Assembly (NCBI GenBank): GCA_000802095.1
Contig: JUEB01000017.1
Coordinates: 124,001-188,000, forward strand
From: Peptococcaceae bacterium BICA1-7
GTDB lineage: Bacteria > Bacillota > Desulfotomaculia > Desulfotomaculales > Desulfocucumaceae
Length of the DNA stretch: 64,000 nt
Direction: 5' to 3'
Shown: positions 9,557-26,455 of the stretch, piece after piece
Layout of the letters: each line of letters opens with the position of its first letter
Position numbering within the stretch: the first letter of the stretch is position 1
Notes under the pieces: model-generated
The model's database searches: none
Told to the model about the DNA's origin: nothing
The model's input: only the letters and a program-made list of their open reading frames with translations
Translations under genes and position numbers: made by a program

Positions 9557-9592
9557 TCTCACCCCTGTCCGCCGCCTCCACAATACTATAAG

Positions 9593-12354: not shown

Positions 12355-12376
12355 TGAAATATTATTGTCGAATAGT
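12355..12376 (+). promoter_or_regulatory. Spo0A-box-like site upstream of the GNAT/precursor operon
   Basis: TGTCGAA at 12366-12372 matches the Spo0A box consensus (TGNCGAA). The flanking ATTGAA, AT-rich spacer and AGT are shared with the site at 16819, upstream of precursor 7. It lies 57 bases before the chosen GNAT start. Spo0A control is an inference from the match and its repetition. Confidence 0.5.
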
Positions 12377-12428
12377 TGGATATGGTAATTATCATTGAGA
12401 TATTATGGAAAAAGTGGGAGATTGTCAG

Positions 12429-13340
12429 ATGTATTGCCTGGTGGAACTTAAAAAAGAGAATAAGTTGGACTTTAAAAGGTTTGTACGGCCTTTTTTTGAG
12501 GGCCAATTTGAAAAATTGGATGAGGACCAGTCTGTTTGCGGGGCCGGGGCCACTTTTTTCGGTGATCCGGTGGGACTGGCCCTCTGCCATAACTATTACG
12601 AAAATAACTGGAATGTAATCATTGTCTATGTTGTTCCCAAATTCAGAAATATGGGCATTGGGACAGCCCTGATGACAAATGTTGAAGCTATGGTTAGCCA
12701 AAGGGACGGCCGTAAAATGCTGTTCAGCTACCAGTCCGATAACACCACCCGGTTACCGGTGGAAAAGGTGCTGGCCCGGCGCGGCTTCCCCGAACCACTG
12801 CCGGAGGTAAACTTCTACCGGACAGAAATAGAAAAGCTGTGTGACCTGGGCTGGATTAAAAAGTATGTATTAGCCGAGGCACTGGAAAAGAGCACTGTTT
12901 TCTACCGTGAATACGAGATTTTCCGGTGGGCTGAATTAAATGACCGGGACAGGGACATGCTTCTGGCGAGCCGGGGCAGTATCTATAGCCGGGATGTATC
13001 ACCCCTGGAAATGGCTGAGAAAATTGATGGACAGCTTAGCCTGGGCGTCCGTCATAACGGTGATCTCATAGGTTGGCTGGTGACCATGAAATCCGGGGAT
13101 GACAACCTGTATATAAAAGCTTCCTTTTTAAAAGAGGAGTACCGGGGCACCTCCCTTTACGTGGTTTTATTCTCCACCATCATGAATCTGCAAAAAAAGG
13201 CCGGCATTCCCTATACCACCACCGAGGTCCGGACCGACAACAAAAGAATGATCAGATTTATGAACCACGCCCTGGCCGACGCCGGCTACACCAGGACCGA
13301 GAGTCTGTCAACCTTAAAGAATTTGGCCCCAACTCTGTAA
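12429..13340 (+). CDS. tandem-GNAT-fold protein heading the precursor operon
   Basis: Two N-acetyltransferase-like folds appear in about 303 residues. The first has the acetyl-CoA loop region V-V-P-K-F-R-N-M-G-I-G-T-A-L; the second, from about residue 160, has weaker motifs (F-L-K-E-E-Y-R-G-T-S-L-Y) and may be structural. The longest frame starts at 12405, but ATG 12429 lies eight bases after GGGAG and is preferred. The stop is only 55 bases before precursor 1, same strand, with no terminator, so the two are probably one transcript. A possible role is acetylating the peptide (Lys, N-terminus or Tyr) or self-protection. The acceptor cannot be read from sequence. Confidence 0.78.
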   Translation: MYCLVELKKENKLDFKRFVRPFFEGQFEKLDEDQSVCGAGATFFGDPVGLALCHNYYENNWNVIIVYVVPKFRNMGIGTALMTNVEAMVSQRDGRKMLFSYQSDNTTRLPVEKVLARRGFPEPLPEVNFYRTEIEKLCDLGWIKKYVLAEALEKSTVFYREYEIFRWAELNDRDRDMLLASRGSIYSRDVSPLEMAEKIDGQLSLGVRHNGDLIGWLVTMKSGDDNLYIKASFLKEEYRGTSLYVVLFSTIMNLQKKAGIPYTTTEVRTDNKRMIRFMNHALADAGYTRTESLSTLKNLAPTL

Positions 13341-13395
13341 AAGGCTCTATTAGTTAAATGGAATAAGCTTAATAAAAAAACTGGGAGGGTTTACA

Positions 13396-13707
13396 ATGAC
13401 TAACTGGACCGAAGAGGAAGTACAAAAGGTTGTGGCCGAAATTGGTAAAAAGGCGGCCGCCGACCCGGCCTTCCGCAAATTATGCCTGGAAAACCCGGCT
13501 GAAGCGGTAAAAAGGGTGGGCGGCAAGGATCTGCCCCAGGGGCTGAAGGTGAGGTTTGTAGAAAATGCCGGGGCCCACATGACCTTTGTGCTGCCTGATC
13601 CTGCCGGCCCCGGGGAGCTTGCCGAGGCGGACCTGGACAAGGTGGCCGGGGGAGCCGAGCCCGGGGATACTCAATCATCAAAAACGTGTTACGGCTACGG
13701 TTATTAG
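13396..13707 (+). CDS. NHLP-leader RiPP precursor 1
   Basis: The 103-residue precursor has a leader resembling the nitrile hydratase alpha subunit (N-W-T-E-E-E-V-Q-K near the start, A-D-P-A-F-R-K-L-C, K-V-R-F-V-E-N, H-M-T-F-V-L-P). It ends in V-A-G-G, the double-glycine site for the C39 exporter. The core is AEPGDTQSSKTCYGYGY: four Ser/Thr, one Cys and a Y-G-Y-G-Y end. ATG start ten bases after GGGAGGG. Likely LanM chemistry is dehydration of Thr/Ser and a thioether to the Cys. The two Y-G pairs could be radical SAM targets. It is the first precursor after the GNAT gene. Confidence 0.92.
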   Translation: MTNWTEEEVQKVVAEIGKKAAADPAFRKLCLENPAEAVKRVGGKDLPQGLKVRFVENAGAHMTFVLPDPAGPGELAEADLDKVAGGAEPGDTQSSKTCYGYGY

Positions 13708-13746
13708 AAAGCCAAATCTAACTTCAAATAGAATGGGGGCCAATAA

Positions 13747-14046
13747 TTGAATAACTGGACCGAAGAAGAAGTACAAAAAGTGGTAGCTGAAATTGGTAAA
13801 AAGGCGGCAGCCGACCCGGCTTTCCGCAAATTATGCCTGGCCAACCCGACCGGAGCGGTGAAGGAAGTCAGCGGCAAGGATTTGCCCCAGGGGCTGAAGG
13901 TGCGGTTTGTGGAAAATGAGGGAGCTCACATGACCTTTGTGCTTCCTGATCCTGCCGGCTCCGGGGAGCTTGGCGAGGAAGACCTGAACAGAGTAGCCGG
14001 AGGAGCCGGGGAAACTCAAGGGAAATGTTATGGTTTCGGTTATTAG
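13747..14046 (+). CDS. NHLP-leader RiPP precursor 2
   Basis: The 99-residue precursor has a TTG start after GGGGG (nine-base spacing) and the same NHLP leader ending V-A-G-G. The core is AGETQGKCYGFGY, identical to that of precursor 5. It has a single Thr four residues before a single Cys, which fits one methyllanthionine ring, followed by Y-G-F-G-Y. Small differences in the leader (A-N-P-T-G-A-V-K-E-V) distinguish it from precursor 1. Confidence 0.92.
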   Translation: MNNWTEEEVQKVVAEIGKKAAADPAFRKLCLANPTGAVKEVSGKDLPQGLKVRFVENEGAHMTFVLPDPAGSGELGEEDLNRVAGGAGETQGKCYGFGY

Positions 14047-14086
14047 AAAGCTAAATCCAACTTTAAACAGGATAGGGGGTCATTGA

Positions 14087-14395
14087 TTGACTAACTGGAC
14101 CGAAGAGGAAGTACAAAAAGTGGTGGCCGAAATTGGTAAAAAGGCGGCCGCCGACCCGGCATTCCGGAAATTATGTCTGGAAAACCCGGCTGAAGCGGTG
14201 AAAAAGGTGAGCGGCAAGGATCTGCCCCAGGGGCTGAGGGTGAGGTTTGTAGAAAACGCCGGAGCCCACATGACTTTTGTGCTGCCTGATCCCGCCGGCC
14301 CCGGGGAGCTTGGCGAGGCAGACCTGGACAGAGTAGCCGGGGGAGCCGGAGAATCGACTGGATCAAGGAAAATGTGTTACGGTTACGGTTACTAA
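14087..14395 (+). CDS. NHLP-leader RiPP precursor 3
   Basis: The 102-residue precursor has a TTG start after GATAGGGGG. The leader ends V-A-G-G and the core is AGESTGSRKMCYGYGY, with Ser, Thr and Ser available for dehydration, one Cys, and the Y-G-Y-G-Y end. The Arg-Lys pair makes this core more basic than the others. It uses the TAATAA double stop. Confidence 0.92.
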   Translation: MTNWTEEEVQKVVAEIGKKAAADPAFRKLCLENPAEAVKKVSGKDLPQGLRVRFVENAGAHMTFVLPDPAGPGELGEADLDRVAGGAGESTGSRKMCYGYGY

Positions 14396-14437
14396 TAAGC
14401 TAATTTCTAACTTTAGATAGAAGATGGGGGATACAAA

Positions 14438-14740
14438 ATGACTAACTGGACCGAAGAGGAAGTACAAAAGGTTATAGCAGAAATAGGCAAAAAGGCGGCC
14501 GCCGAACCGGCCTTCCGCAAATTATGCCTGGAAAACCCCGCTGAGGCGGTGAAAAAGGTGAGCGGCAAGGACCTGCCCCAGGGGCTAAAGGTCAGGTTTG
14601 TGGAAAATGCCGGCGCCCACATGACTTTTGTGCTGCCAGATCCTGCCGGCCCCGGGGAGCTTGGCGAGGCAGATCTGGACAAGGTGGCCGGGGGCGGGGG
14701 AGACACCGGACCAAAAGTGTGCTTCGGTTACGGTTATTAG
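14438..14740 (+). CDS. NHLP-leader RiPP precursor 4
   Basis: The 100-residue precursor has an ATG start after GGGGG. The leader ends V-A-G-G and the core is GGDTGPKVCFGYGY, with one Thr five residues before the only Cys. The residue after Cys is Phe, and only one Y-G pair remains before the final Tyr. A-A-E-P replaces A-A-D-P in the leader. Confidence 0.92.
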   Translation: MTNWTEEEVQKVIAEIGKKAAAEPAFRKLCLENPAEAVKKVSGKDLPQGLKVRFVENAGAHMTFVLPDPAGPGELGEADLDKVAGGGGDTGPKVCFGYGY

Positions 14741-14780
14741 AAAGCCAAGCATTACCTTAAATAGAACGGAGGGAGAATTA

Positions 14781-15080
14781 TTGACCAACTGGACCGAAGA
14801 GGAAGTGCAAAAAGTGGTGGCCCAAATTGGTAAAAAGGCGACCGCCGACCAGGCCTTCCGGAAATTATGCCTGGAAAATCCGGCCGGAGCGGTTAAGGAA
14901 GTAGGCGGCAAGGACCTGCCCCAGGGACTGAAGGTCAGGTTTGTGGAAAACGAGGGGGCACACATGACCTTTGTGCTGCCTGATATGGTTAACGCCGGGG
15001 AGCTTGGCGAGGAAGACCTGAACAGAGTAGCCGGAGGAGCCGGGGAAACTCAAGGGAAATGTTATGGTTTCGGTTATTAG
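14781..15080 (+). CDS. NHLP-leader RiPP precursor 5
   Basis: The open frame extends upstream to 14628 through precursor 4. The real start is the TTG at 14781, which aligns with the other precursors and follows GGAGGGA. The 99-residue product has a leader with D-M-V-N-A in place of D-P-A-G-P. The core is AGETQGKCYGFGY, identical to precursor 2. The identical 3' end and spacer argue for recent gene conversion. Confidence 0.9.
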   Translation: MTNWTEEEVQKVVAQIGKKATADQAFRKLCLENPAGAVKEVGGKDLPQGLKVRFVENEGAHMTFVLPDMVNAGELGEEDLNRVAGGAGETQGKCYGFGY

Positions 15081-15119
15081 AAAGCTAAACCAACTTTAAA
15101 CAGGATAGGGGGCCATTAA

Positions 15120-15416
15120 TTGAATAACTGGACCGAAGAAGAAGTACAAAAAGTGGTAGCTGAAATTGGTAAAAAGGCGACCGCCGATCCTGCCTTCCGC
15201 AAATTATGCCTGGAAAACGCAGCCGAGGCGGTAAAAAAGGTAAGCGGCAAGGAGCTTCCCAAAGGAATGAAGTTAAAGTTTGTCGAAAATGAGGGGGCCC
15301 ACATGACCTTTGTGCTGCCTGATCCTGCCGTTTCCGGGGAGCTTGGCCTGGAAGACCTGGACAGGGTGGCCGGGGGCAAGGCTCCTAATGGTACTGGTTA
15401 CTCTTTTGGCTACTAA
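15120..15416 (+). CDS. NHLP-leader RiPP precursor 6 (Cys-less core)
   Basis: The 98-residue precursor has a TTG start after GATAGGGGG. The leader diverges in the middle (K-E-L-P-K-G-M-K-L-K) and ends V-A-G-G. The core is KAPNGTGYSFGY. It has no Cys, so no thioether can form within the core. It still ends F-G-Y and has Thr and Ser that could be dehydrated. It is last in the array and is followed by a terminator, and could be a drifting copy or one modified only by the other enzymes. Confidence 0.9.
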   Translation: MNNWTEEEVQKVVAEIGKKATADPAFRKLCLENAAEAVKKVSGKELPKGMKLKFVENEGAHMTFVLPDPAVSGELGLEDLDRVAGGKAPNGTGYSFGY

Positions 15417-15458
15417 GCCAATTCACAACAGAGTAATAATATATTCATCCCAATAGGA

Positions 15459-15493
15459 GGAGTTCCGGGCAACCATTCCCGGAATTCTTTTTA
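15459..15493 (+). terminator. terminator of the precursor array
   Basis: AGTTCCGGG and CCCGGAATT form a stem over an eight-base loop, followed by CTTTTT. A very similar hairpin (AGAGTTCCG...CGGAACTCT) follows precursor 7, showing that the 3' flank was duplicated together with the precursor. Confidence 0.8.
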
Positions 15494-15519
15494 TTAACAC
15501 TGTATAATTTAGGGGGCTA

Positions 15520-16545
15520 TCAAAGCCTTATGTCGCTGTCTACAAAGTTGATAATGCCACTGCTTTTACAGATGTCTTCATCAAATTGTGAGAAGTACTC
15601 CAGTATCCGGGGGTTGTTATCCAGTAAAAGTGATTTCTTTTGCCATATGGCCGTAAAGGGCTCTTCCAGTATATTGCCCAGCACAAAGGGCGCGGCGCAG
15701 TTTATCCTTATATCCCCGCTGGGCCTTATTATTATAAATCTGCCCGAGGAGGACGGAATATACCCATAGATGAAGGATTGACCGGTCATATAGGACACTC
15801 CTATAGTATTCTGTGCATTCAGCCGGCAGGCTTCCACCTGTAAACGGTTTAGCTGTTCATTATTTAAAAACAGCTCCTGGTGATTTATGCTCCTGCCACT
15901 GTACATAACCGGGGAAAAACCAATAGCAACTGCTCCCACGCGGCCGGCCAGGTCCACCATTTGCTCCATACTATCAAGGTTTTCCGGCGTAACCATGCTG
16001 GTGATGCTTAAGGTCATTCCCGCTTCGGCAAAAAGCTCCGCCGCCCGGACGGCCCTTTGAAAGCTGCCTTTTTTTTGCCGGAGCCTGTCATGGACCTCCC
16101 CGATGCCGTCTATAGAAACCTGGACATAGGAGTAGTTGAATTTGGACAGCTTTTTTACCCAGCCCTCATCCACCAGGTAACCGTTGGTGTTCAGTATGAA
16201 TATAGTGCCATCCTGGTGGAGCACATCCATTATCTTTATCAGGTCATCGCCCAGCAGCAGGGGCTCTCCTCCGGAGAGGTTGCACAAAAACACCCCGCCG
16301 CTGTCTACCAGCTCCCGGCAGAGTCCCAACCAGTGGGCGGCCTTCAGGGCGGTCTTCTGGTCCGCATCCCCGGACTTGTTGTAGCAGTGCAGGCAGCGCA
16401 TATTACAGCCTGCTGTCAGGTCGAACTCAATATACAGGGGCAGGCGGAACCGCCCGGGATAAAGCCCGTCCCGGCGAAGGCTGTTTATATATTGGTATTT
16501 TTTATCCAGCTTTTCTTTCAGTGCTGCCCATTTTTCTGCTTTCAT
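15520..16545 (-). CDS. radical SAM peptide-modifying enzyme 1
   Basis: The 341-residue radical SAM enzyme has the [4Fe-4S]/SAM motif C47-N-M-R-C51-L-H-C54-Y, followed by G-G-E-P (S-G-G-E-P-L-L). The C-terminal part has R-P-S-G-D-I-R-I-N-C-A-A-P-F and a G-N-I-L-E-E-P segment, the shape of a SPASM/twitch end, but with few Cys, so auxiliary clusters may be reduced. The start at 16545 follows GGGAGG by four bases; the longer frame to 16578 lacks a site. It is divergent from precursor 7 and convergent with the array. Candidate for Tyr-Gly chemistry or Cys linkage on the cores. Confidence 0.88.
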   Translation of the reverse strand: MKAEKWAALKEKLDKKYQYINSLRRDGLYPGRFRLPLYIEFDLTAGCNMRCLHCYNKSGDADQKTALKAAHWLGLCRELVDSGGVFLCNLSGGEPLLLGDDLIKIMDVLHQDGTIFILNTNGYLVDEGWVKKLSKFNYSYVQVSIDGIGEVHDRLRQKKGSFQRAVRAAELFAEAGMTLSITSMVTPENLDSMEQMVDLAGRVGAVAIGFSPVMYSGRSINHQELFLNNEQLNRLQVEACRLNAQNTIGVSYMTGQSFIYGYIPSSSGRFIIIRPSGDIRINCAAPFVLGNILEEPFTAIWQKKSLLLDNNPRILEYFSQFDEDICKSSGIINFVDSDIRL

Positions 16546-16591
16546 CTTTCCTCCCTGTGATGATGTATCCGCCAGCAAGTATTAATTCTGT

Positions 16592-16609
16592 CATAACACA
16601 TAATAACAC
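16592..16609. promoter_or_regulatory. 18-bp repeat with two ATAACAC half-sites, copy 2
   Basis: Exact second copy of the block at 12143-12160. It is placed 47 bases upstream of radical SAM gene 1 in the 408-base divergent gap before precursor 7. The remainder of this gap is AT-rich, with no gene seen and only the Spo0A-like site described separately. Confidence 0.5.
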
Positions 16610-16806
16610 CCTTTTTACTAAAAAAGGTATGCCATTTTTTTTGTTAATTAACTGTAATGGATTTTCTACCTAAACGTAATAAACCAATAGATATTAATAC
16701 AAGTCCTACAGGTGCTGTTGAGCAGTCCACCAACACTCTTAATAGCGGAACTTTAATGGTTTATTGTATAAAATTTTTGGTATATGCAGGGTTATAATTT
16801 ACTTTT

Positions 16807-16829
16807 ATTGAATAATATTGTCGAACAGT
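16807..16829 (+). promoter_or_regulatory. Spo0A-box-like site upstream of precursor 7
   Basis: TGTCGAA at 16819-16825 is a perfect Spo0A-box match within a ~22-base block (ATTGAA, ATATTG, TCGAAC, AGT) that recurs at 12355-12376. It is 129 bases before the precursor 7 start. Confidence 0.5.
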
Positions 16830-16953
16830 CAGGGAAGATAATTCTCTGTGTATGGGAGCAGGCGGGTGATTATCATACTTACTGCCTTAAAAGAGAATAA
16901 ATCTTGAGACGAATTAAGATGTTAACTCTATAAAAAAATTGGGAGGTTTTACA

Positions 16954-17271
16954 ATGAATAACTGGACCGAAGAGGAAGTGCAAAAAGTGGTGGCCCAAAT
17001 TGGCCAAAGGGCGGCCAGCGACCCTGCCTTTCGCAAATTGTGCCTGGCCGACCCCGCCGGGGCGGTGAAGGAAGTGAGTGGCAAGGACCTGCCCCAGGGG
17101 CTGAAGGTGCGGTTTGTGGAAAATGAGGGAGCTCACATGACCTTTGTGCTGCCTGACCCCGCCGGCCCCGGGGAACTTGGCGAGGAGGACCTGGACAAGG
17201 TGGCCGGGGGAAATTTACCGGGAGACGGGAACGGGGTCACTTATGTAAGTAAGTGCGGTTTTGGCTACTAA
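16954..17271 (+). CDS. NHLP-leader RiPP precursor 7 (separate from the array)
   Basis: The 105-residue precursor has an ATG start nine bases after GGGAGG; the frame opens at 16939, but that extension is not conserved. The leader is close to that of precursor 2 (V-K-E-V-S-G-K-D-L-P) and ends V-A-G-G. The core NLPGDGNGVTYVSKCGFGY is the longest, with Thr and Ser ahead of one Cys and a C-G-F-G-Y end that lacks any Y-G. It has its own promoter region copied from the one ahead of the GNAT/array operon, and its own terminator, and lies divergent to radical SAM gene 1. Confidence 0.92.
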   Translation: MNNWTEEEVQKVVAQIGQRAASDPAFRKLCLADPAGAVKEVSGKDLPQGLKVRFVENEGAHMTFVLPDPAGPGELGEEDLDKVAGGNLPGDGNGVTYVSKCGFGY

Positions 17272-17311
17272 GCCAACTAACAGAGAATATTAGAACCTTT
17301 TCATAATAGTA

Positions 17312-17348
17312 AGAGTTCCGGCATTCATTTTCGGAACTCTTTTTCTTT
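17312..17348 (+). terminator. terminator after precursor 7
   Basis: AGAGTTCCG and CGGAACTCT make a perfect nine-base stem, followed by TTTTTC. It is related to the terminator after the six-gene array. Confidence 0.85.
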
Positions 17349-17367
17349 CATAGCTTTTTTATGGTCC

Positions 17368-17501
17368 TCAAAGCCTTATAAGGTTTAGCTGCTCGCTGTT
17401 TAAAAACAGCCCCGGGATACCGCCCACCCGGCGAAGACTGTCTATGTATTGGTAATTTTTGTCCAGCTCTTCTTCAGTGCCGCCCAGGCTTCTTCTTTCA
17501 T
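17368..17501 (-). pseudogene. collapsed remnant of a third radical SAM gene
   Basis: Read leftward, the segment starts with a ribosome site and ATG like radical SAM gene 1, then codes M-K-E-E-A-W-A-A-L-K before a one-base deletion shifts the frame. The bases continue to match the first ~30 codons of that gene, then jump to a piece matching its L-F-L-N-N-E-Q-L-N codons, and end with the same TCAAAGCCTTAT tail. A whole paralogue has therefore lost its middle and been frameshifted. It is followed at once by the PqqD-like gene on the same strand. Confidence 0.75.
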
Positions 17502-17522
17502 GTTCCTCCCTGTAATGCGCTA

Positions 17523-17903
17523 TCACTCCAGCCTGATCAGCCCGTACTTTTCCAGGGTATAGGTCAGTACTCTCAAATCACTGTCCAACCGGTTCTTTTC
17601 CACATCATAAAGGCCTGCCAGTTCCTCCGCTACCCCAGCCAGGTTTCTCTGTCCGTCCATAAGAATAAAGGCCCTCCAGGCAGTCCTGTTCAGAAAATAA
17701 AGCAGCAGGTTCCCGGCCATCACTATTAAAAAGTCTCCGTCCTCCCTGGTTTTACGCACATTGTGCACCGGCTTCAAGCCCCTCGAAGCCTCCCACCAAA
17801 CTTCCACCAACTGGATTTGGGGGCTGAAAGGCACCGCCCCAATTTCCGGGTCCGGTATTACCGACGGCGCTGTGTATTCCATCATTTCCAAAAGCAGTCT
17901 CAC
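17523..17903 (-). CDS. PqqD-like peptide-recognition (RRE) protein
   Basis: A small protein of about 120 residues with the PqqD/RRE-type pattern: a strand-rich N-terminal half, L-L-L-Y-F-L-N-R-T-A-W-R-A-F-I-L-M-D-G then A-G-V-A-E-E-L-A and a helical end. Such proteins bind leader peptides and hand them to radical SAM enzymes. It is downstream of radical SAM gene 2 on the same strand (gap 153). The GTG at 17903 overlaps its own AAAGGAG site, so translation probably begins at the TTG at 17891 or the ATG at 17885. It resembles the small partner of splicease and mycofactocin-type radical SAM enzymes by role and size. Confidence 0.72.
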   Translation of the reverse strand: MRLLLEMMEYTAPSVIPDPEIGAVPFSPQIQLVEVWWEASRGLKPVHNVRKTREDGDFLIVMAGNLLLYFLNRTAWRAFILMDGQRNLAGVAEELAGLYDVEKNRLDSDLRVLTYTLEKYGLIRLE

Positions 17904-18056
17904 TCCTTTTATAATGGATCAGATTGTTAACAAGACACTCTTGCCGCCAACAGCAGCAGAGGCTGATAATAGGAATGCCCGGATATTCTGGAATCTGGAT
18001 TCTGGATTCCGACCGGCAAGAATTTCAGTATAAGTATTTCAGAGTAGCCCGCGCTT

Positions 18057-19088
18057 TCATAAAAGTATGTCTTTATCCCAGTGATTTGCCCTGCCATCGT
18101 ACTCTGCGGTAACCTGGTCCACACCCTCCAAAAATCTGACCACCTGGGGGTGTCTCCAGGCTGTGACAGCCTTTTTTCTCCATATGTCGGCTATGGACTC
18201 CCGCTGCACATTGCCCACTATAAACGGGGCGCTGCAGGTCAGCCTGACATCGCCGTCGGGCCTGATCACCAGGTTTTTGCAGGGATGCCCGGACAGGTGG
18301 TACTGCACCGCATAATACCCCGTTCCATAGCCCAGAGGCAGTGAGTATTTTCCCTTAAGGGCAACATATTTTTGGGCCAGCAGCTCCTGCTGCTCACGGT
18401 TTAAGGCCAGCTGCCTGTTTTTCACCGCCCGCCCGCTGAAGAGCACCATTTCCAGCCCCAGGCCTCTGGCCCCCAGGCCTTGGGCCAGCCTTACCATTTC
18501 CTCCAGGCTGCCCAGGCTTTCCGGTGTGACGCAGGTGGAAATATCAAAGGGTATGCCGGCCCCGGAGCAGAGCCCGGCGGCCCTGACCACCCTCGCAAAG
18601 CTGCCGGGAACCTGCCTCAGGCCATCGTGCAGCTCTTCTGTGCTACCGTCGATGGACAGCCTCAGGGTGAGGTCTTTATACCGGGAAAGGCTGGAGATCC
18701 AGCCCTCATCCAGCAGAAAGCCGTTGCTTATAAGTGTAATGGGGGTGCCGTCGGCGGCGAAAAGGTCCATTATCTCAAAGAGCCCCTCCCCTATTAAGAG
18801 TGGCTCCCCCCCGGACAATATAATATTGAATACCCCTCCGCTATCGATCAGCTCCCGGGTGATCCTTAGCCAGTCACTGAGCTGCAGGGTGGTTTTTTTA
18901 CCCGGCCCCCCCGAGTCGTTATAGCAGTGCAGGCACTTTAGATTGCAGCTGGCGGTAAGCTCATACTGCACTCCCAGGGGCAGGGCAAAGGCGGTGGGAA
19001 AGCTGCCTTTTTGCTGCTGCTCCCGGATATGCCCGCTGACCGCCTCAAATTGGCTTTTTTCATATTTTCGAAGTTCCTCCAGCATCAT
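18057..19088 (-). CDS. radical SAM peptide-modifying enzyme 2
   Basis: The 343-residue paralogue of radical SAM enzyme 1 has C48-N-L-K-C52-L-H-C55-Y and S-G-G-E-P. The C-terminal region has H-P-C-K-N-L-V-I-R-P-D-G-D-V-R-L-T-C, so it keeps a Cys pair that enzyme 1 lacks, which may bind an auxiliary cluster. GGAGG lies three bases before the first ATG and six before a second, so the start may be 19085. It lies 15 bases after the hydrolase gene, same strand, in an operon with the PLP enzyme and the PqqD-like protein. Confidence 0.88.
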   Translation of the reverse strand: MMLEELRKYEKSQFEAVSGHIREQQQKGSFPTAFALPLGVQYELTASCNLKCLHCYNDSGGPGKKTTLQLSDWLRITRELIDSGGVFNIILSGGEPLLIGEGLFEIMDLFAADGTPITLISNGFLLDEGWISSLSRYKDLTLRLSIDGSTEELHDGLRQVPGSFARVVRAAGLCSGAGIPFDISTCVTPESLGSLEEMVRLAQGLGARGLGLEMVLFSGRAVKNRQLALNREQQELLAQKYVALKGKYSLPLGYGTGYYAVQYHLSGHPCKNLVIRPDGDVRLTCSAPFIVGNVQRESIADIWRKKAVTAWRHPQVVRFLEGVDQVTAEYDGRANHWDKDILL

Positions 19089-19103
19089 GGGCCTCCATTT
19101 TAC

Positions 19104-20174
19104 TTAAATATCCATCTGATCCAGCAGGTCGCAGGCAATCTCCTCAGGAAAGACCGGGGTAAAAACATTGCCCAGCAGCACAATAAGCTGGCGGCTGTTG
19201 GTAATCCTGAGAATAAGGGTGCAAAAGCCCGCAATCTTCCCCCTGTGCACTATGCAGGTGACGGCATTTTCTCCTCCCTGGCTTTTGTAGTCAAGGGGGT
19301 CCACCATGAACTCCTTTATTTTGCCGGGGCTTATGTCCACCCGCACCCAGCCGAAGGCGTAATTGCCAATATAGGGTGTGAACAGCATTTCCCGGTGCCT
19401 TTGGCTTAAGAGCCTGTCGGTGTACAGTGCCTGATCCCAGAGATACATGTCCTCCACGGTGGAATAGATGTTACCGGCCGCAAAGGAAGCACGGCTGTCC
19501 AGCATTTCCTCAGGCGCGAGGCCCCTTTCCCCATAGGAATAGCTGCGGGCGAAGTCCACCGATGAGCAACCGTCATCATAATAGCCGCTGTTCTGCATCC
19601 CCAGAGGCTGCATTATGTTGTCCCGCAGCGCCTCGGGGTAGGTTTTTCCGGTGACTTCCTCGATAATGTTTCCCAGAAGGCAGTATCCGGTGTTGCAGTA
19701 CTTGAACCTAGACCCGGGCGGAAATTCCAGCCGGTCCCGGGTTACCCCGCTGTTTATCCTGCCTATGGCGTGTGGTTGGTAAGGCTTGCCGGACTCAAAG
19801 GAGGGCTGGTGGAACAGGTCCGGTAATCCGGAGGTGTGGGTAAGCAGGTGCCTTACCGTAATGCCGCTGCCCAGGTCACCTGAAAAGCCCGGCAGGTAGC
19901 GGGAGATTTCCCCGTCCAGCCGGACCAGGCCCTTTTCCACCAGCTGCATTACCAAAAGGGAAGTAAACTGCTTGGTGTTAGACCCCAGCATAAACCTGGT
20001 GTCCGGCCGGTTAGGCACGCGCCAGGCCCTGTCGGCATAGCCGAAGCTTTTCTTATAGATTATTTCTCCCCGGTGGGCTACCAGAGCACTGCCGTTAAAG
20101 CTCCCCTCTTTATAGCAGCCGGTCATTACCCGGTCTATAGCATTTTCCAGTGCCTCCCCGGATCTGTTCTGCAT
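19104..20174 (-). CDS. cytoplasmic S12-family (beta-lactamase/DD-peptidase-like) serine hydrolase
   Basis: The 356-residue protein has the serine beta-lactamase/DD-peptidase fold motifs: S65-N-T-K68 (SxxK nucleophile) and Y159-C-N161 (YxN). The third motif near the end is H-R-G-K-I-A, not the usual KTG. No signal peptide is present, so unlike penicillin-binding relatives it should act inside the cell. ATG start nine bases after AGGAG. It sits between the PLP enzyme and radical SAM gene 2 in one operon. It could hydrolyse, amidate, cyclise or cut D-residue-containing or modified peptides. A housekeeping cell-wall role is unlikely given the location. Confidence 0.82.
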   Translation of the reverse strand: MQNRSGEALENAIDRVMTGCYKEGSFNGSALVAHRGEIIYKKSFGYADRAWRVPNRPDTRFMLGSNTKQFTSLLVMQLVEKGLVRLDGEISRYLPGFSGDLGSGITVRHLLTHTSGLPDLFHQPSFESGKPYQPHAIGRINSGVTRDRLEFPPGSRFKYCNTGYCLLGNIIEEVTGKTYPEALRDNIMQPLGMQNSGYYDDGCSSVDFARSYSYGERGLAPEEMLDSRASFAAGNIYSTVEDMYLWDQALYTDRLLSQRHREMLFTPYIGNYAFGWVRVDISPGKIKEFMVDPLDYKSQGGENAVTCIVHRGKIAGFCTLILRITNSRQLIVLLGNVFTPVFPEEIACDLLDQMDI

Positions 20175-20210
20175 GGCTTAGCTCTCCTGTTATTATGTTT
20201 TAAGTCATAT

Positions 20211-21488
20211 CTAGCGTCTGGTAAAAAGTGATTTCCAGGCATTTAATGAGTCCGCATGGTTCTTATAGACCTTCATGGCCTCTTCAAACACATTTAAGGT
20301 ATAGTCCACATCCTGGTCGGTGTGAGTATAGCAGGGGAATACGGTCCAGCCGATAAACACCCCTCTTTTCACACACTCCTGTAAAAAGATATTTTTTCCG
20401 TTAAAGTCATAGTTGCCCCCGCTATCTTTAAAGAAAAACATCAGCCTGGGCGCGTATCCCCGCAGGCTAATGTTGACCCCCAGCCGCTCCGCCATTTTGT
20501 TGGTCTCGGACTTCAGCCTGCCGCCTATGGCCATTATTCTCTCATTGACAGCCTTATCCCGCAGCTCTTTGATTACCGCAATACCGGCGGCCAGGGAAAG
20601 CCTCTCCCCGCCGAAGGTGGTAAAGAGGTATACGTCTTTATCCACAGCATCCATTATTTCTTTAGGGCCGGTCACGAAGGACAGCGGCATACCGTTGGCG
20701 GCCGCCTTGCCGAAGGCCGCCAGGTCCGGTGTCAGACCCAGTACCTTCTGGGCTCCACCAATATCAAACCGGAATCCGGTGACCACCTCATCGAAGATGA
20801 GTAAGGCCCCGTTGGCGTGGCAGAAATCCAGCAGGTTATGGAGAAAGTTGTTTTGGGGCTCATCTATGATTAACGGCTCTATTATTACCGCCGCCACATC
20901 GCCCCTGTTCTTTTCAAATATGCTCTCAAAGGCGTCAAAGTCGTTATACCGGCAGGTGTGGATGTATTGTCTCACCTCCGGCAGTATTCCCCCCTGCCTG
21001 TAGCCCTCGGCGGCAATGGTCCACTCGTGCCAGCCGTGATACTCACCGCGAATGATATGCTTTTTCCCGGTATAGGCTCTGGCCACCCGGACAGCGGCCT
21101 CGGCCGCAGAGGAGCCGGTCTTTAAAAACCGCACCTTTTCGGCGCAGGGAATATGCTCACAGACCAGCTCGGCATACTCCACCTCCTGGGGGCTGACCAG
21201 TGAAAACTCCATTCCCAGCCCCAGTTGGTCCATTACCGCCCGGTCCACCGGGTCGTAGCAGTAGCCCAGCAGTATTGGCCCCAGTCCCATGTCGTAGTCT
21301 ATATACTCATTGCCGTCCATATCCCATATGTGGCCGTGCTTACCCCTTTTTATAAACCGGGGATAGCTGCCCCGCACATGGCTTCCGGAACCCTCGTCAT
21401 AAAGCTGGACCAGGGAGAAAATAGTCTTTTCCGCCCTACTCCAGTATTCTTCGGATATATCAAGTTTTTTAATGTTATTTTTCAACAA
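20211..21488 (-). CDS. class-III PLP aminotransferase/GSA-aminomutase-like enzyme
   Basis: Fold-type I PLP enzyme related to glutamate-1-semialdehyde aminomutase: N-G-x-E-Y-I-D-Y-D, T-G-S-S-A-A-E-A-A-V-R-V-A-R, F-D-E-V-V-T-G-F-R (cofactor Asp) and the Schiff-base Lys in A-A-F-G-K-A-A-A-N-G. The longest frame starts at a TTG (21515) that overlaps a TATAAT box. The TTG at 21488, five bases after GAGGGGG, is the better start and gives 425 residues. It is first in the operon with hydrolase, radical SAM 2 and PqqD-like protein, divergent from lanM. The context points to peptide tailoring rather than heme synthesis, but the substrate is unknown. Confidence 0.85.
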   Translation of the reverse strand: MLKNNIKKLDISEEYWSRAEKTIFSLVQLYDEGSGSHVRGSYPRFIKRGKHGHIWDMDGNEYIDYDMGLGPILLGYCYDPVDRAVMDQLGLGMEFSLVSPQEVEYAELVCEHIPCAEKVRFLKTGSSAAEAAVRVARAYTGKKHIIRGEYHGWHEWTIAAEGYRQGGILPEVRQYIHTCRYNDFDAFESIFEKNRGDVAAVIIEPLIIDEPQNNFLHNLLDFCHANGALLIFDEVVTGFRFDIGGAQKVLGLTPDLAAFGKAAANGMPLSFVTGPKEIMDAVDKDVYLFTTFGGERLSLAAGIAVIKELRDKAVNERIMAIGGRLKSETNKMAERLGVNISLRGYAPRLMFFFKDSGGNYDFNGKNIFLQECVKRGVFIGWTVFPCYTHTDQDVDYTLNVFEEAMKVYKNHADSLNAWKSLFTRR

Positions 21489-21514
21489 TGCAGCCCCCTC
21501 ATGCTTACCTGCCA

Positions 21515-21523
21515 ATTATACCA
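21515..21523 (-). promoter_or_regulatory. extended -10 promoter of the PLP/hydrolase/radical SAM operon
   Basis: TGGTATAAT on the minus strand is an exact extended -10 (TGnTATAAT). No good -35 is visible. Its position shows that translation cannot start at the TTG at 21515 and supports the start at 21488. Confidence 0.55.
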
Positions 21524-21698
21524 CATATAAGTGGCTTAATTGGCGCTTTTAGAGGCTTAAATGGGAAATTACTCTAAAATAAAAATATTTTAAAAACTTC
21601 TCACGGTTTATGTAGGAATATTGGCAATGCCCCAACGAATTCTATACTGGATAATGACTTATAACACCATTTATTAAAGCTCTCAGAGGTAGCGCAAA

Positions 21699-24600
21699 AT
21701 GCAAAGAATAAAAGATATTCTGGCGGACATAGCATTAGGCTCCCGCACCCTTTACGAAAGACTGGGGGACGGCCGGCCCGCCCCGGCGCCGGACCAGCGG
21801 GAAAAAGTCTCCCCCCTAAGGGAGATGTGGATAGAGTACTCTGCCGAAAAGGATGAGTTTTTATTCGCCAGGAGGCTTAAGTGGGACGGCCTTGCCGAGA
21901 CTGACCTTAACCGTCTGCAGGGAGGCGGGCAGCCGCCGGGGAGCAAAAGTGAGCCCCTCTGGCTGGCACTGCTGGAGGAGTTACTGGAGCGGGCCGGTGC
22001 CACCCCGATGGAAGAGCTAAGGCAGAGTTCCTTTTTGAAGGAGGACAGTAGGCTTCCCTTTGAGGAGATACTCTCTTTATTTGTGCTCTGCGGGACAGAC
22101 AGGCTTTCCCCGGGCATGGGGAGCGCTGGGACATTGCTGACAGGGGCCGCCCTGACAGATTTTCAGAGACACCTCATCAAAAGGCTGGTTTTTGTATCAC
22201 AGCAGGTATTATTCCAGGAGTTTTGCCATAGCCGGGATAAAGGCCCGGCCCTGCAGCCGGTTAACCCTGCCTCCCCTGCCGGGGTTGCGGGATCAACCCC
22301 GGAGTGGCTGAGGATCTGGACCGGGCAGAGCCCCTCAGACCGGGATTACCTGGCCTTTATCCGGGAGCTCCTGGCCGGAGGGCTGGCGAATTTGTTTTCC
22401 CGGTACCCCGTTATGGCCAGGCTGATGGCTGAAGTCACCTGCTACTGGGTGAACAGCACGTTAAAATTTGTTGAGGCCCTGGCCAGTGACCGGCAGAAAA
22501 TAGCCCACACCTTTTCCGCCGGGAAAGACCCGGGACAGGTGGTTTCGGTAAACTGCGGGCTGTCGGACCCCCATAACCGGGGGCGGTCCGTCATGCTGCC
22601 AGAGTTTGCCAGCGGCCTGAAACTGGTTTACAAGCCCCGGAATCTGGGCATTGAGGAGGCCTATTTTGGTTTCCTGTCCTGGCTTAACCACCGGGGGGGG
22701 GAAAGTATGTTTAAAATACTTAAAACCCTCAGCCAGAAAAACCATGGGTGGGTCGAGTTTTGCCCGCACCTGCCCTGCCGGAGCCCTGAAGAGGTGAGCA
22801 TGTATTACAGGCGCAGCGGCATGCTGCTGGGTGTGCTGCATGCCCTGGCGGGGTCGGACTTTCACCTGGAGAACATCATCGCCAGCGGCCCATACCCTGT
22901 GGCTGTGGATCTGGAGGTGCTGCTGCAGCCGGAGCCGGCTGAGCCCGGACCTGTGCAGCTCCGGCCCGATGTAATACAGACTATGCTGCTGCCCTATATG
23001 TACAAAAAGGAGGCCGACGTGCTTTACACAGTTGGCGGGCTGGGCAACGGGCTGCCGGACCGGGAAAGGGTATCCCTGTGGAAGGATATTAATACAGACA
23101 GCATGCGGCTGGAGGAAAGCTCTAATGAGAATACCGTTTCCACCAACTGCGTGTGCTTAAACGGGGAAAAGGTTGCCGCCACCGGCTACGCTAAGGAGAT
23201 AATCCATGGCTTCGCCAGTATTTACCGGCTTTTTCTGGCCAACCGGGAACAAATACAGGCCTCCGGCGGCCCTTTGCATCTTTTTGAAGGCCGGCAGGTC
23301 CGCCATGTGCTGAGAAGCACCCAGACCTATTTTGATCTGATGTACAACTCTCTGCTGCCTCGCTATATGAAGAACGGCGCCTGGCGCAGCGCAAGGCTCG
23401 ATAAAATAAGCCGGCCCCTGGTAAAAAAGAATAAAAGGCCTGCCGTCTGGAGTTCCTTGAAGTACGAACACCTGGCCCTGGACAGGGTGGATGTGCCCCT
23501 GTTTTATATAAATACCGGAAGTCCTGACCTGGAGCTTCCACCCGGAGGCCGGATAAAGGATTACTTCCGGGAAACACCGCTGGAGGCCTCCGCCCGGCGC
23601 ATCCAGTCCTTTGGCAGCAGTGATCTGGACAGACAGATAGCTCTAATCCGGGCCAGCCTGGATATACAGGAAAGAATGAGTGCCTCGGTATCCCTCCCCT
23701 CCTTTGACAAACCAGTGGAAAGCATTGTCCCTGCCGGTAAAAATGAACTGCTGGCCGCAGCGGGCAGGATTGTCCGGGAGGTGGTGGAGGGAGCCGTAGG
23801 GCTGCCCGGTGAGGCTTCCTGGGTGCAGCTGGAGGAAGAGGAAAAAAGCTGCCGGCTTATTCTCACAGGCAGTGACCTCTATTCCGGCAGCGCCGGGATA
23901 CTGCTCTTCCTGGCGGCCTGGGCCGGTGTCACCGGCCAGAGAGAGCCTTTTGAGAGCCTTGCCGCCCCTGTCAGGCTGTCCACCGCTGCTCAGTGGGCTC
24001 AAAGCCCGGGGCAGGAGGGTATGGATCTGGGAGCCGGTTCCGGGCTAGGGGGAATCATCTACTCCTTTGCAAAGATATGGAGGCTGACCGGGGACCAGTC
24101 CTTTCTGGACGTGGCCGGTGGGCTGGCCCGCTCGGCCACCGGTGAATATATTGAGCGTGACCGGCATTACGATATTATCTCCGGGTCCTCCGGGCTGCTG
24201 CTGGGCCTCCTGGAGCTATACCGGGCTGAAAAAGATAAAGAGGTGCTGCAGGCCGCCCTCAAGTGCGGGGATCACCTGCTCAACGGCCGGACAGCCGGTG
24301 AGTCCGGGTATAGGGCCTGGAAGGTCCAGGGCCTGCCGACTCATAATGCAAAGCCTTTACTGGGTTTTTCCCACGGTGCGGCGGGCATCGGCCACGCCCT
24401 GGGACGCCTTTACCGGGTAACCGGGGAAGCCAGGTTCATGGAAGGGGCCCGGGAGGCGGCGCTTTACGAGGACAGTCTTTTCTCGGCAGAGGAGGGCAAC
24501 TGGCCTGACCTGAGGCTGAAGGACAGCGGTGAGCCCTCCGGCTTTACCCGGTCCTGGTGCCACGGCGGGCCGGGAATAGTCCTGCCCCGCCTGGAGGCCG

Positions 24601-24950
24601 GGGGGATCATGGAGGAGAAACTGCGCCAAAGCGACATAGCCTCCGCCCTGAAGACAGTGACCACAAGCCCCCTGTCCGGGGCCGGGGATTTATGCTGCGG
24701 GCAGTTTGGGCTCATTGACATTTTACTTACTGCGTCTCTAAAATTGGGCAGGCAGGACCTGTACACCGAGGCGGTAAGGAGGGCCTCCTGGCTTCTGGAC
24801 CGGGAGAGGGAGACAGGAATATTATTAACCACACCGGACTCTCCCCGGGGTGTCTGTAACTTTTCCCTTTTTAAGGGCATATCCGGCGCAGGGTACGCCC
24901 TGCTGAGGCTGGCGCACCCTGCGCTTCCGTCGGTGCTGACCTTTGAGTAG
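21699..24950 (+). CDS. lanM: class II lanthipeptide synthetase LanM, CCG zinc-ligand type
   Basis: The 1083-residue bifunctional enzyme should phosphorylate and eliminate Ser/Thr in the cores, then add Cys to make (methyl)lanthionine. The N-terminal DUF4135 dehydratase half holds D-F-H-L-E-N-I-I (about 386) and A-V-D-L-E-V-L. The LanC-like half, from about 720, holds G-F-S-H-G-A-A-G-I-G-H (888), S-W-C-H-G-G-P-G-I (~953) and D-L-C-C-G-Q-F-G (~998). The last motif is C-C-G in place of the usual C-H-G, the three-Cys zinc site seen in promiscuous synthetases such as ProcM, which also use NHLP/Nif11-type leaders. Ribosome site AGAGGT. It is the likely partner of all seven precursors. Confidence 0.95.
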   Translation: MQRIKDILADIALGSRTLYERLGDGRPAPAPDQREKVSPLREMWIEYSAEKDEFLFARRLKWDGLAETDLNRLQGGGQPPGSKSEPLWLALLEELLERAGATPMEELRQSSFLKEDSRLPFEEILSLFVLCGTDRLSPGMGSAGTLLTGAALTDFQRHLIKRLVFVSQQVLFQEFCHSRDKGPALQPVNPASPAGVAGSTPEWLRIWTGQSPSDRDYLAFIRELLAGGLANLFSRYPVMARLMAEVTCYWVNSTLKFVEALASDRQKIAHTFSAGKDPGQVVSVNCGLSDPHNRGRSVMLPEFASGLKLVYKPRNLGIEEAYFGFLSWLNHRGGESMFKILKTLSQKNHGWVEFCPHLPCRSPEEVSMYYRRSGMLLGVLHALAGSDFHLENIIASGPYPVAVDLEVLLQPEPAEPGPVQLRPDVIQTMLLPYMYKKEADVLYTVGGLGNGLPDRERVSLWKDINTDSMRLEESSNENTVSTNCVCLNGEKVAATGYAKEIIHGFASIYRLFLANREQIQASGGPLHLFEGRQVRHVLRSTQTYFDLMYNSLLPRYMKNGAWRSARLDKISRPLVKKNKRPAVWSSLKYEHLALDRVDVPLFYINTGSPDLELPPGGRIKDYFRETPLEASARRIQSFGSSDLDRQIALIRASLDIQERMSASVSLPSFDKPVESIVPAGKNELLAAAGRIVREVVEGAVGLPGEASWVQLEEEEKSCRLILTGSDLYSGSAGILLFLAAWAGVTGQREPFESLAAPVRLSTAAQWAQSPGQEGMDLGAGSGLGGIIYSFAKIWRLTGDQSFLDVAGGLARSATGEYIERDRHYDIISGSSGLLLGLLELYRAEKDKEVLQAALKCGDHLLNGRTAGESGYRAWKVQGLPTHNAKPLLGFSHGAAGIGHALGRLYRVTGEARFMEGAREAALYEDSLFSAEEGNWPDLRLKDSGEPSGFTRSWCHGGPGIVLPRLEAGGIMEEKLRQSDIASALKTVTTSPLSGAGDLCCGQFGLIDILLTASLKLGRQDLYTEAVRRASWLLDRERETGILLTTPDSPRGVCNFSLFKGISGAGYALLRLAHPALPSVLTFE

Positions 24951-25000: not shown

Positions 25001-26455
25001 ATGAATTACGGGGACAAGCAGGAATCTTTCATAATAGACAACATGAAGGAAGGCATCCTAACCATAGACTTCAAGGGGATAATCACCTCACTAAACCCGG
25101 CGGCGGAAAGAATACTGGAAATAAAGCGTGAAGACGTGGTTAACAGTACTCTTGCCGAGACCTTCTTCGGCCTTGAGGAAAACGACGATTTTAACCAGAC
25201 CATTCTTGATGCTGTGTATGAGACCTCAGTAACCCACAACAGGGTTGTCAGCTATTGTACCGGGCAAAAAACCAAAACATTGTTTTTGACCACTTCCTTC
25301 TTGCAGTCGGTGGAGGGCGGCAAGGTGCAAAGAAAAGGGGTTGTGGCGGTTTTTAACGACATAACCGAGCTTCAGGAGCTCAGGGACGCGGTAAAGGCCA
25401 TGGAAAAGATTAAAGAGCTGAACCGTGATCTGGAGCTGCGCAACAGGTTTATAAGCGAAACCTTTGGCCGCTATCTCTCGGACGAGGTTGTCAGAAATCT
25501 CATAAGCCAGCCCGGGACATTAAAACTGGGCGGTGAAAAGAGGCTTGTAACCATTGTATTAACCGACCTGAGAGGCTTTACCTCCATGTCCGGGGAACTG
25601 GCGCCGGACACCGTGGTGACAATACTGAACAACTACCTCGGGGTAATGGTGGATATTATTCTCAAATATAATGGCACCATACTGGAGTTTATCGGTGACA
25701 GCATACTGGCAATCTTCGGAGCGCCTGTCAGCACCGAAGATCACGCCGCCCTGGCGGTGGCCTGCTGCATTGAGATGCAGCAGGCCATGGGAAAGGTTAA
25801 CCAGTGGAACTTTGAAAATGGTTTTTCGGAAATGGAGATGGGCATAGGAATCAATACCGGGCAGGTTGTGGTTGGAAATATAGGCTCCGAAAGGAGAACC
25901 AAGTACGGGGTAGTGGGCAGCCAGGTAAATCTGGCCGCCCGCATTGAATCTTACACGGTGGGGGGGCAAATTCTGGCCTCAGGTGAAACCATACAGTCAG
26001 CCGGCTCGCCGGTAAAAATCAATTCTTCCCTGGAGGTTCATCCCAAGGGGATAGAGGAAGCCATTACAATTTACGAAATAGGCGGCATAGGAGAACCCTA
26101 TAACCTATACCTTGCCGGACAAAATTCCGAGCTGAAGACTCTGGCAAAAAAAATACCGGTGCGTATCTTCACCCTTAACGATAAGCACTGTGAAGAAAAC
26201 TTTATCAGCGGATACCTGGTGAAGCTTTCTTTAAAGGAAGCGGAGCTTTGGTCCGGCATAAAAATGGCCCCCATGGCCAATATTAAAGTACTCATTCCTG
26301 ATCAAAAAGGCCATATACTGGCCGGTGAAATCTATGCCAAGGTAAGAAAGGCAGAAATAAATAACACCTTTATGGTTAGGTTTACTTCGGTTTCCCGGGA
26401 AGCCAAAAAGTATTTTCTGGGTATTTTGGAGCAGGAGACAAGCCAGCCGGGGTAA
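25001..26455 (+). CDS. PAS-domain class III nucleotide cyclase
   Basis: The 484-residue signalling protein has a PAS fold at about 8-120 (I-I-D-N-M-K-E-G-I-L-T-I-D, then N-P-A-A-E-R-I-L), a coiled linker and a class III adenylate/guanylate cyclase at about 175-360. In the cyclase, metal-binding Asp residues appear in V-L-T-D-L-R-G-F-T and F-I-G-D-S-I-L-A, with K-Y-G-V-V-G-S-Q-V-N-L-A-A-R. The C-terminal ~110 residues resemble a PilZ-like end (M-V-R-F-T-S-V-S). It starts 50 bases after lanM with no terminator between. With the cNMP-domain transporter at the other cluster end, a cyclic-nucleotide link is possible. Confidence 0.85.
   Translation: MNYGDKQESFIIDNMKEGILTIDFKGIITSLNPAAERILEIKREDVVNSTLAETFFGLEENDDFNQTILDAVYETSVTHNRVVSYCTGQKTKTLFLTTSFLQSVEGGKVQRKGVVAVFNDITELQELRDAVKAMEKIKELNRDLELRNRFISETFGRYLSDEVVRNLISQPGTLKLGGEKRLVTIVLTDLRGFTSMSGELAPDTVVTILNNYLGVMVDIILKYNGTILEFIGDSILAIFGAPVSTEDHAALAVACCIEMQQAMGKVNQWNFENGFSEMEMGIGINTGQVVVGNIGSERRTKYGVVGSQVNLAARIESYTVGGQILASGETIQSAGSPVKINSSLEVHPKGIEEAITIYEIGGIGEPYNLYLAGQNSELKTLAKKIPVRIFTLNDKHCEENFISGYLVKLSLKEAELWSGIKMAPMANIKVLIPDQKGHILAGEIYAKVRKAEINNTFMVRFTSVSREAKKYFLGILEQETSQPG

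Follow-up and report, generated by a model that had tools for sequence, protein, structure and literature searches.

An NHLP-leader RiPP cluster with a LanM and a transferable set of enzymes that may modify C-terminal aromatic residues

Organization of the cluster

The stretch of DNA analysed here (the window) comprises 64,000 nucleotides from the Peptococcaceae bacterium BICA1-7 (contig JUEB01000017.1, positions 124,001–188,000; genome of 4.75 Mb in 33 contigs). Spanning 3.5–24.95 kb of the window, as delineated by open reading frames and family models, is a cluster composed of an export operon, a GNAT gene, precursor genes, tailoring genes and lanM. The export operon lies on the minus strand and contains the complete set of NHLM export genes, each scoring above its own family cut-off: export ABC transporter 2 (4658–7369; TIGR03797, 993 bits, cut-off 709), the peptidase/permease/ATPase (7385–9583; TIGR03796, 1139 bits, cut-off 853) and the HlyD-type secretion protein (9593–10912; TIGR03794, 413 bits, cut-off 156). 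At its end is a DUF7005 protein gene (3501–4637; PF22541, 482 bits), and heading it is a Peripla_BP_6 gene encoding a substrate-binding protein of the branched-chain amino acid type (10955–12076, minus strand; PF13458, 177 bits). In a second genome, G051, a similar ORF occupies the same position next to an NHLM operon whose precursors are of the Nif11 type (L137:11652–11900).

Following the export operon are a double-GNAT acetyltransferase gene (12405–13340, plus strand; two stretches matching PF00583), six tandem NHLP precursor genes, the gene for radical SAM enzyme 1 (15520–16578, minus strand; PF04055, 88 bits) and a seventh precursor gene. The second part of the cluster encodes a PqqD-like protein that is likely to be a RiPP recognition element (17523–17903; PF05402, 26.7 bits, cut-off 23.4), radical SAM enzyme 2 (18057–19088), an S12 serine hydrolase (19104–20174; PF00144, 208 bits) and a class-III PLP enzyme (20211–21515; PF00202), all on the minus strand, and LanM (21699–24950, plus strand). 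Directly 3′ of lanM is a gene for a protein with PAS and guanylate/adenylate cyclase domains (25001–26455, plus strand). A preliminary description of this DNA had named the precursors, LanM, both radical SAM enzymes, the PqqD-like protein, the PLP enzyme and the hydrolase, and open reading frames and family models place every one of these families where it had put them; missing from its list was the double-GNAT, a conserved member of the cassette described below.

The seven precursors, encoded on the plus strand, score 50.0–59.6 bits with TIGR03793 (cut-off 50.9), six of them above the cut-off and the sixth, at 50 bits, slightly below; the earlier count of seven NHLP leaders holds. No others were found in a search of the genome, and a control search of 14 genomes found no NHLP precursors. 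Their proteusin-type, nitrile-hydratase-like leaders are conserved as far as VAGG, with the boundary at GG, and are followed by cores of 12–19 residues: AEPGDTQSSKTCYGYGY (precursor 1, 13396–13707), AGETQGKCYGFGY (precursor 2, 13747–14046), AGESTGSRKMCYGYGY (precursor 3, 14087–14395), GGDTGPKVCFGYGY (precursor 4, 14438–14740), AGETQGKCYGFGY again (precursor 5, 14781–15080), KAPNGTGYSFGY (precursor 6, 15120–15416) and NLPGDGNGVTYVSKCGFGY (precursor 7, 16954–17271). The cores are variable apart from the tail [Y/F]GY, which all seven share, as had been reported, with Tyr as the last residue in each; an XYG motif is present in cores 1–5 and absent from cores 6 and 7. Precursors 2 and 5 carry the same core behind differing leaders and are 88% identical at the DNA level, a pattern pointing to duplication or gene conversion while the core was held under pressure.

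LanM is full-length, with dehydratase and cyclase domains (TIGR03897, 767 bits, cut-off 304; DUF4135 and LANC_like), and no second LanM was found in a search of the genome. Its translation carries WCHGG and LCCGQ, the cyclase domain being of the CCG type. The class II lanthipeptide core requirement of Ser or Thr together with Cys is found in six of the seven cores; core 6 contains no Cys, and a lanthionine is therefore not possible for it on its own. The single thioether ring predicted earlier would thus apply, by family, to six precursors, and not to precursor 6 on its own.

The sequence TATTGTCGAAYAGT occurs in two exact copies on the plus strand, upstream of the GNAT gene (12363–12376) and of precursor 7 (16816–16829). 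No exact copy lies upstream of lanM, and the regulatory repeats that lanM had been said to share are not borne out. The interval separating precursor 7 from the PqqD-like gene holds a remnant of a radical SAM 1-like gene (approximately 17376–17515, minus strand), with 67% identity over residues 21–44 of radical SAM 1 plus a match to residues 9–26; its N-terminus is joined to a middle piece by an internal deletion, and it contains stops and a frameshift. Taken together with the two TATTGTCGAAYAGT copies and with the 3′ ends that match between precursors 6 and 7, this remnant suggests duplication of a promoter–precursor–radical SAM unit, followed by decay of one of the radical SAM copies.

A cassette common to two loci

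When relatives were searched with radical SAM 1, a single strong match emerged beyond its own genome, in G051, which belongs to the same order and another family. Encoded at this locus (L013) are, in order, YcaO, GNAT, an NHLP precursor, a PqqD-like protein, an NHLP precursor, SagB, an NHLP precursor, a class-III aminotransferase, S12 and a radical SAM enzyme. Identities to the window proteins are 39% for GNAT, 32% for the PqqD-like protein, 73% for the aminotransferase, 47% for S12 and 50% for the radical SAM enzyme, compared with radical SAM 2, the cassette member of the window. The GNAT homologue lies directly upstream of the first NHLP precursor, the S12 and radical SAM genes overlap, and YcaO and SagB score above their family cut-offs. 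Within the L013 stretch neither LanM nor an exporter was found; NHLM exporters are encoded elsewhere in the G051 genome.

Ring chemistry thus differs between the two loci, whereas five cassette genes (GNAT, PqqD-like, radical SAM, aminotransferase and S12) and the leader subfamily stay together. Because G051 has these five genes with YcaO and SagB instead, the cassette can be parted from LanM and is bound to a single NHLP-leader subfamily, the synteny resting on one comparison of two loci. The earlier reading of a hybrid RiPP cluster, with its proposal that the same enzymes be sought together around NHLP precursors in other genomes, accordingly survives in part: G051 unites three NHLP precursors with S12, PLP enzyme and radical SAM homologues, and the tail is still the likely target of the additional enzymes, but the stretch examined there holds no LanM, which is not a defining partner.

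The G051 cores (SNCMNGNCKFCTGY, YANCLGKCY and HRQGVDCKF) contain YG in none of three cases, and the ring-forming residues of the cores differ between the loci, in line with the ring enzymes. What the loci have in common is not the [Y/F]-G-Y proposed as the core motif but a C-terminal Tyr or Phe and one Lys per core. A C-terminal Tyr or Phe is found in 9 of 9 distinct cassette cores; among the remaining NHLP precursors of the class the figure is 10 of 37 (Fisher P = 8e-5, for sequences that are related). Exactly one Lys is present in all ten cores of the two loci and in 14 of 37 other NHLP tails when the last 15 residues are taken (P = 0.0015, a rougher comparison).

The cassette is rare. NHLP precursors are present in 22 of the 113 genomes of the class, and the cassette radical SAM enzyme (E < 1e-45) in two, each of which also has NHLP precursors, with leaders from one and the same subfamily; these two are likewise the only genomes of the 113 in which the aminotransferase was found at full score. 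Wide occurrence of these genes without NHLP precursors, which would have spoken against the preliminary description, was looked for in this class and not found. Against a profile built from the cassette leaders, its members score 156–182 bits (high by construction) and all other NHLP leaders of the class at most 49.

The cassette enzymes

The two radical SAM enzymes of the window are 41% identical to each other and match many RiPP and tetrapyrrole families weakly, none above its cut-off among the matches listed. Conserved in all four homologues are the CxxxCxxC motif and one Cys in the C-terminal domain, which is Cys285 in radical SAM 2 and sits at about the position of the first SPASM cysteine; the G051 homologue has five Cys in total. 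NirJ/AhbD-type relatives from neighbouring genomes have 9–11 Cys in the C-terminal domain. In a cysteine census, neither window enzyme, radical SAM 1 included, has the ligand set of SPASM or twitch auxiliary clusters. The auxiliary-cluster cysteines have thus been lost, which should leave a single cluster per enzyme: with only CxxxCxxC and one further Cys, the enzymes lack auxiliary clusters of the kind found in MftC-like decarboxylases, which speaks against oxidations that depend on such clusters, as in MftC, PqqE or PlpX. A single cluster allows redox-neutral chemistry or, as in PoyD, a Cys acting as hydrogen donor. A predicted model of radical SAM 2, of mediocre quality (pLDDT of 67), is nearest to the RiPP maturase SkfB, followed by SuiB, anSME and BlsE; the AlphaFold model of the PqqD-like protein has a pLDDT of 38.

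The class-III enzyme is similar to glutamate-1-semialdehyde aminomutase (best NCBIfam match PRK06209/HemL-like), and its motifs are intact, with the PLP lysine in FGKAAANG and a second motif, FDEVVTGFR. In a tree of 72 relatives, the window and G051 enzymes form a supported pair, next to which is L015 (from a Spirochaetota MAG), then L081 and L016. The genes of these last three adjoin genes for CMP-sugar-type cytidylyltransferases, and those of L016 and L081 also adjoin NeuB; the aminotransferase gene was probably recruited from glycan biosynthesis. A scan of genome contigs with the aminotransferase alignment gave 80 loci, the closest (L015) at 62%, and in the stretches fetched none carried NHLP or other cassette genes. 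Among relatives of solved structure is D-phenylglycine aminotransferase.

The S12 hydrolase likewise has intact motifs (SNTK, YCN and HRG). Neither a signal peptide nor a hydrophobic N-terminus was detected in it, so, in agreement with the preliminary description, it is likely to act in the cytoplasm, a compartment in which all of the peptide should still carry its leader. Relatives of solved structure include alkaline D-peptidase, DD-peptidases and DD-carboxypeptidases, D-amino acid amidase and ClbP.

Candidate chemistry at the C-terminal tail

On balance, we consider it probable that the locus is a RiPP cluster producing up to six different short peptides, in which LanM forms a ring and a portable cassette acts on the C-terminal aromatic tail. 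Judged by its family, LanM would install one lanthionine or methyllanthionine ring in the Cys-bearing cores of six of the seven precursors, and the PqqD-like protein would present the leader to the radical SAM enzyme. The cassette would act in the cytoplasm on leader-bound peptide, which the NHLM exporter would then carry out, its peptidase domain cutting the leader after GG. The tail is the probable target of the cassette, and Lys perhaps another, because a C-terminal Tyr or Phe is still common to the cores when LanM is exchanged for YcaO and SagB. Cluster content, intact motifs, synteny at two loci, common C-terminal aromatics and loss of auxiliary ligands are direct observations, from which we infer every chemical step at the tail.

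For these steps we tentatively propose a route like that of the daptides, in which the C-terminus is converted to an amine, with a slight preference over epimerization and D-specific trimming. Daptide maturation acts on a Thr that is invariant at the C-terminus and undergoes oxidative decarboxylation, transamination by a class-III enzyme and methylation; a recognition protein is present, and the clusters sometimes contain a YcaO or a lanthipeptide dehydratase (PMC10036551; PMC12338566). In the window, radical SAM chemistry would act on the peptide while it is bound to the PqqD-like protein and turn its last, aromatic residue into a carbonyl, which the aminotransferase would convert to an amine; the GNAT may acylate this amine, and the S12 hydrolase, as a guess, may trim or release the C-terminus. 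A radical SAM enzyme would thus take the place of the NAD enzyme, and the GNAT that of the methyltransferase. The shared features are the class-III aminotransferase (PF00202), the recognition protein, an invariant kind of C-terminal residue and the optional YcaO or lanthipeptide partner. Arguing against this route, at the level of sequence, are the apparent lack of MftC-like auxiliary clusters and the position of the aminotransferase closest to glycan enzymes, not RiPP enzymes. The locus is not itself a daptide cluster: all seven cores end in Tyr in place of the invariant Thr (Tyr or Phe across the cassette cores), and no NAD-dependent decarboxylase or methyltransferase is encoded, since all genes of appreciable size from 12.4 to 24.95 kb are assigned to other families.

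A somewhat less plausible alternative is that the radical SAM enzymes are single-cluster epimerases, with the lone Cys as hydrogen donor, that introduce D-residues into the tail; S12 would cut or transfer at a D-residue, and the aminotransferase would remove a released D-aromatic amino acid or act elsewhere. Compared with the daptide-like route, this is the better fit to the pattern of cysteines and to the relatives of S12. PoyD has a radical SAM cluster only, plus a strictly conserved Cys372 (PMC8326336), as the four homologues here have one conserved Cys in the C-terminal domain beside the cluster motif, a feature shared with the proteusin and epipeptide epimerases PoyD and EpeE; the PoyD substrate also has a long NHLP-type leader. 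The D-peptidases, DD-peptidases, D-amino acid amidase and ClbP related to S12, and the D-phenylglycine aminotransferase related to the class-III enzyme, point the same way. Weighing against epimerization, the best radical SAM matches include no family model of an epimerase, the window enzymes belong to another subfamily, and recognition is provided by a separate PqqD-like protein in place of the C-terminal recognition domain of PoyD-type enzymes; moreover, the Gly-rich tails offer few epimerizable residues, and the GNAT and aminotransferase are left unexplained.

It is unlikely that S12, the aminotransferase and the GNAT leave the peptide unmodified, serving immunity or the supply of building blocks, with LanM and the radical SAM enzymes alone maturing it. 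Members of the GNAT and S12 families can have a self-protective role in other peptide systems, and glycan precursors are the products of the aminotransferase's nearest relatives; yet at a locus of different ring chemistry these three genes again accompany the radical SAM, PqqD-like and NHLP genes, and S12 and radical SAM genes overlap there. Less probable still is that the aminotransferase acts on the single core Lys, by omega-transamination to allysine followed by ring closure, with the radical SAM enzymes acting separately. Class-III enzymes commonly act on omega-amines, and a lone Lys recurs in every core; the enzyme, though, is glutamate-1-semialdehyde aminomutase-like, and its closest matches are not the aminotransferases of ornithine or lysine; the Lys is also found at varying positions, and the sample, ten cores from two loci, is small.

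Excision of tyramine at X-Tyr-Gly by the radical SAM enzyme and PqqD-like protein, giving an alpha-keto-beta-amino unit that the aminotransferase could aminate, is very unlikely: PlpXY does act on XYG in NHLP/Nif11-type precursors (PMC10533398; PMC11002830), and NHLP leaders, a radical SAM enzyme with separate recognition protein and XYG in cores 1–5 recall such spliceotides, but radical SAM 1 reaches 68 bits against 725 required for PlpX (TIGR04103/IPR026482), PlpX is of the SPASM type whereas the window enzymes lack those cysteine ligands, and neither cores 6 and 7 nor any of the three cores from G051 contain YG.

Two further systems resemble parts of the cluster. Mycofactocin (MftBC) has a C-terminal Tyr, a PqqD-like partner and a similar radical SAM enzyme; the window enzymes score 104 and 94 bits with MftC (TIGR03962, cut-off 265), are without auxiliary-cluster cysteines and belong to a cassette with a lanthionine or azole partner, which excludes membership. 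The NHLP systems described in 2010 by Haft (PMC2887384) share the TIGR03793 leader, the VAGG boundary, the NHLM export trio, several precursors per cluster and a LanM or cyclodehydratase partner; the cassette of radical SAM, aminotransferase, S12 and GNAT is not described there.

Each part of the cluster is of a known kind, and neither the combination nor a published class with this gene set was found in the literature searched, which covered few subscription journals; the same statement in the preliminary description stands within that scope. Whether the five-enzyme cassette defines a new RiPP class, with an undescribed C-terminal modification of aromatic-ended NHLP peptides irrespective of LanM or YcaO/SagB, we regard as close to an even call, and it would turn on the tail chemistry proving new. 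If the cassette reading is right, a tailoring module would move between lanthipeptides and azole peptides, bringing an aminotransferase lineage of sialic-acid-like glycan pathways into peptide chemistry; its contribution would be either C-terminal amination of the daptide kind by way of radical SAM chemistry or an epimerase coupled in a new manner to a D-peptidase. Peptide engineering, too, would profit from enzymes able to rewrite C-termini.

Beyond the class, a search of 398 genomes of the phylum with the radical SAM enzyme added one genome only, G309 (7e-66), and nothing of use came from searching plasmids or from scanning viral sequences with the same enzyme. On a 9 kb contig of G309 (G309:C67, locus L099), where no precursors or other cassette genes were seen, a related single-Cys radical SAM gene is followed by a PqqD-like gene (5270–6689). 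Adjoining the pair are a B12-type radical SAM gene and an ABC transporter gene, and the pair is perhaps part of another uncharacterized peptide system.
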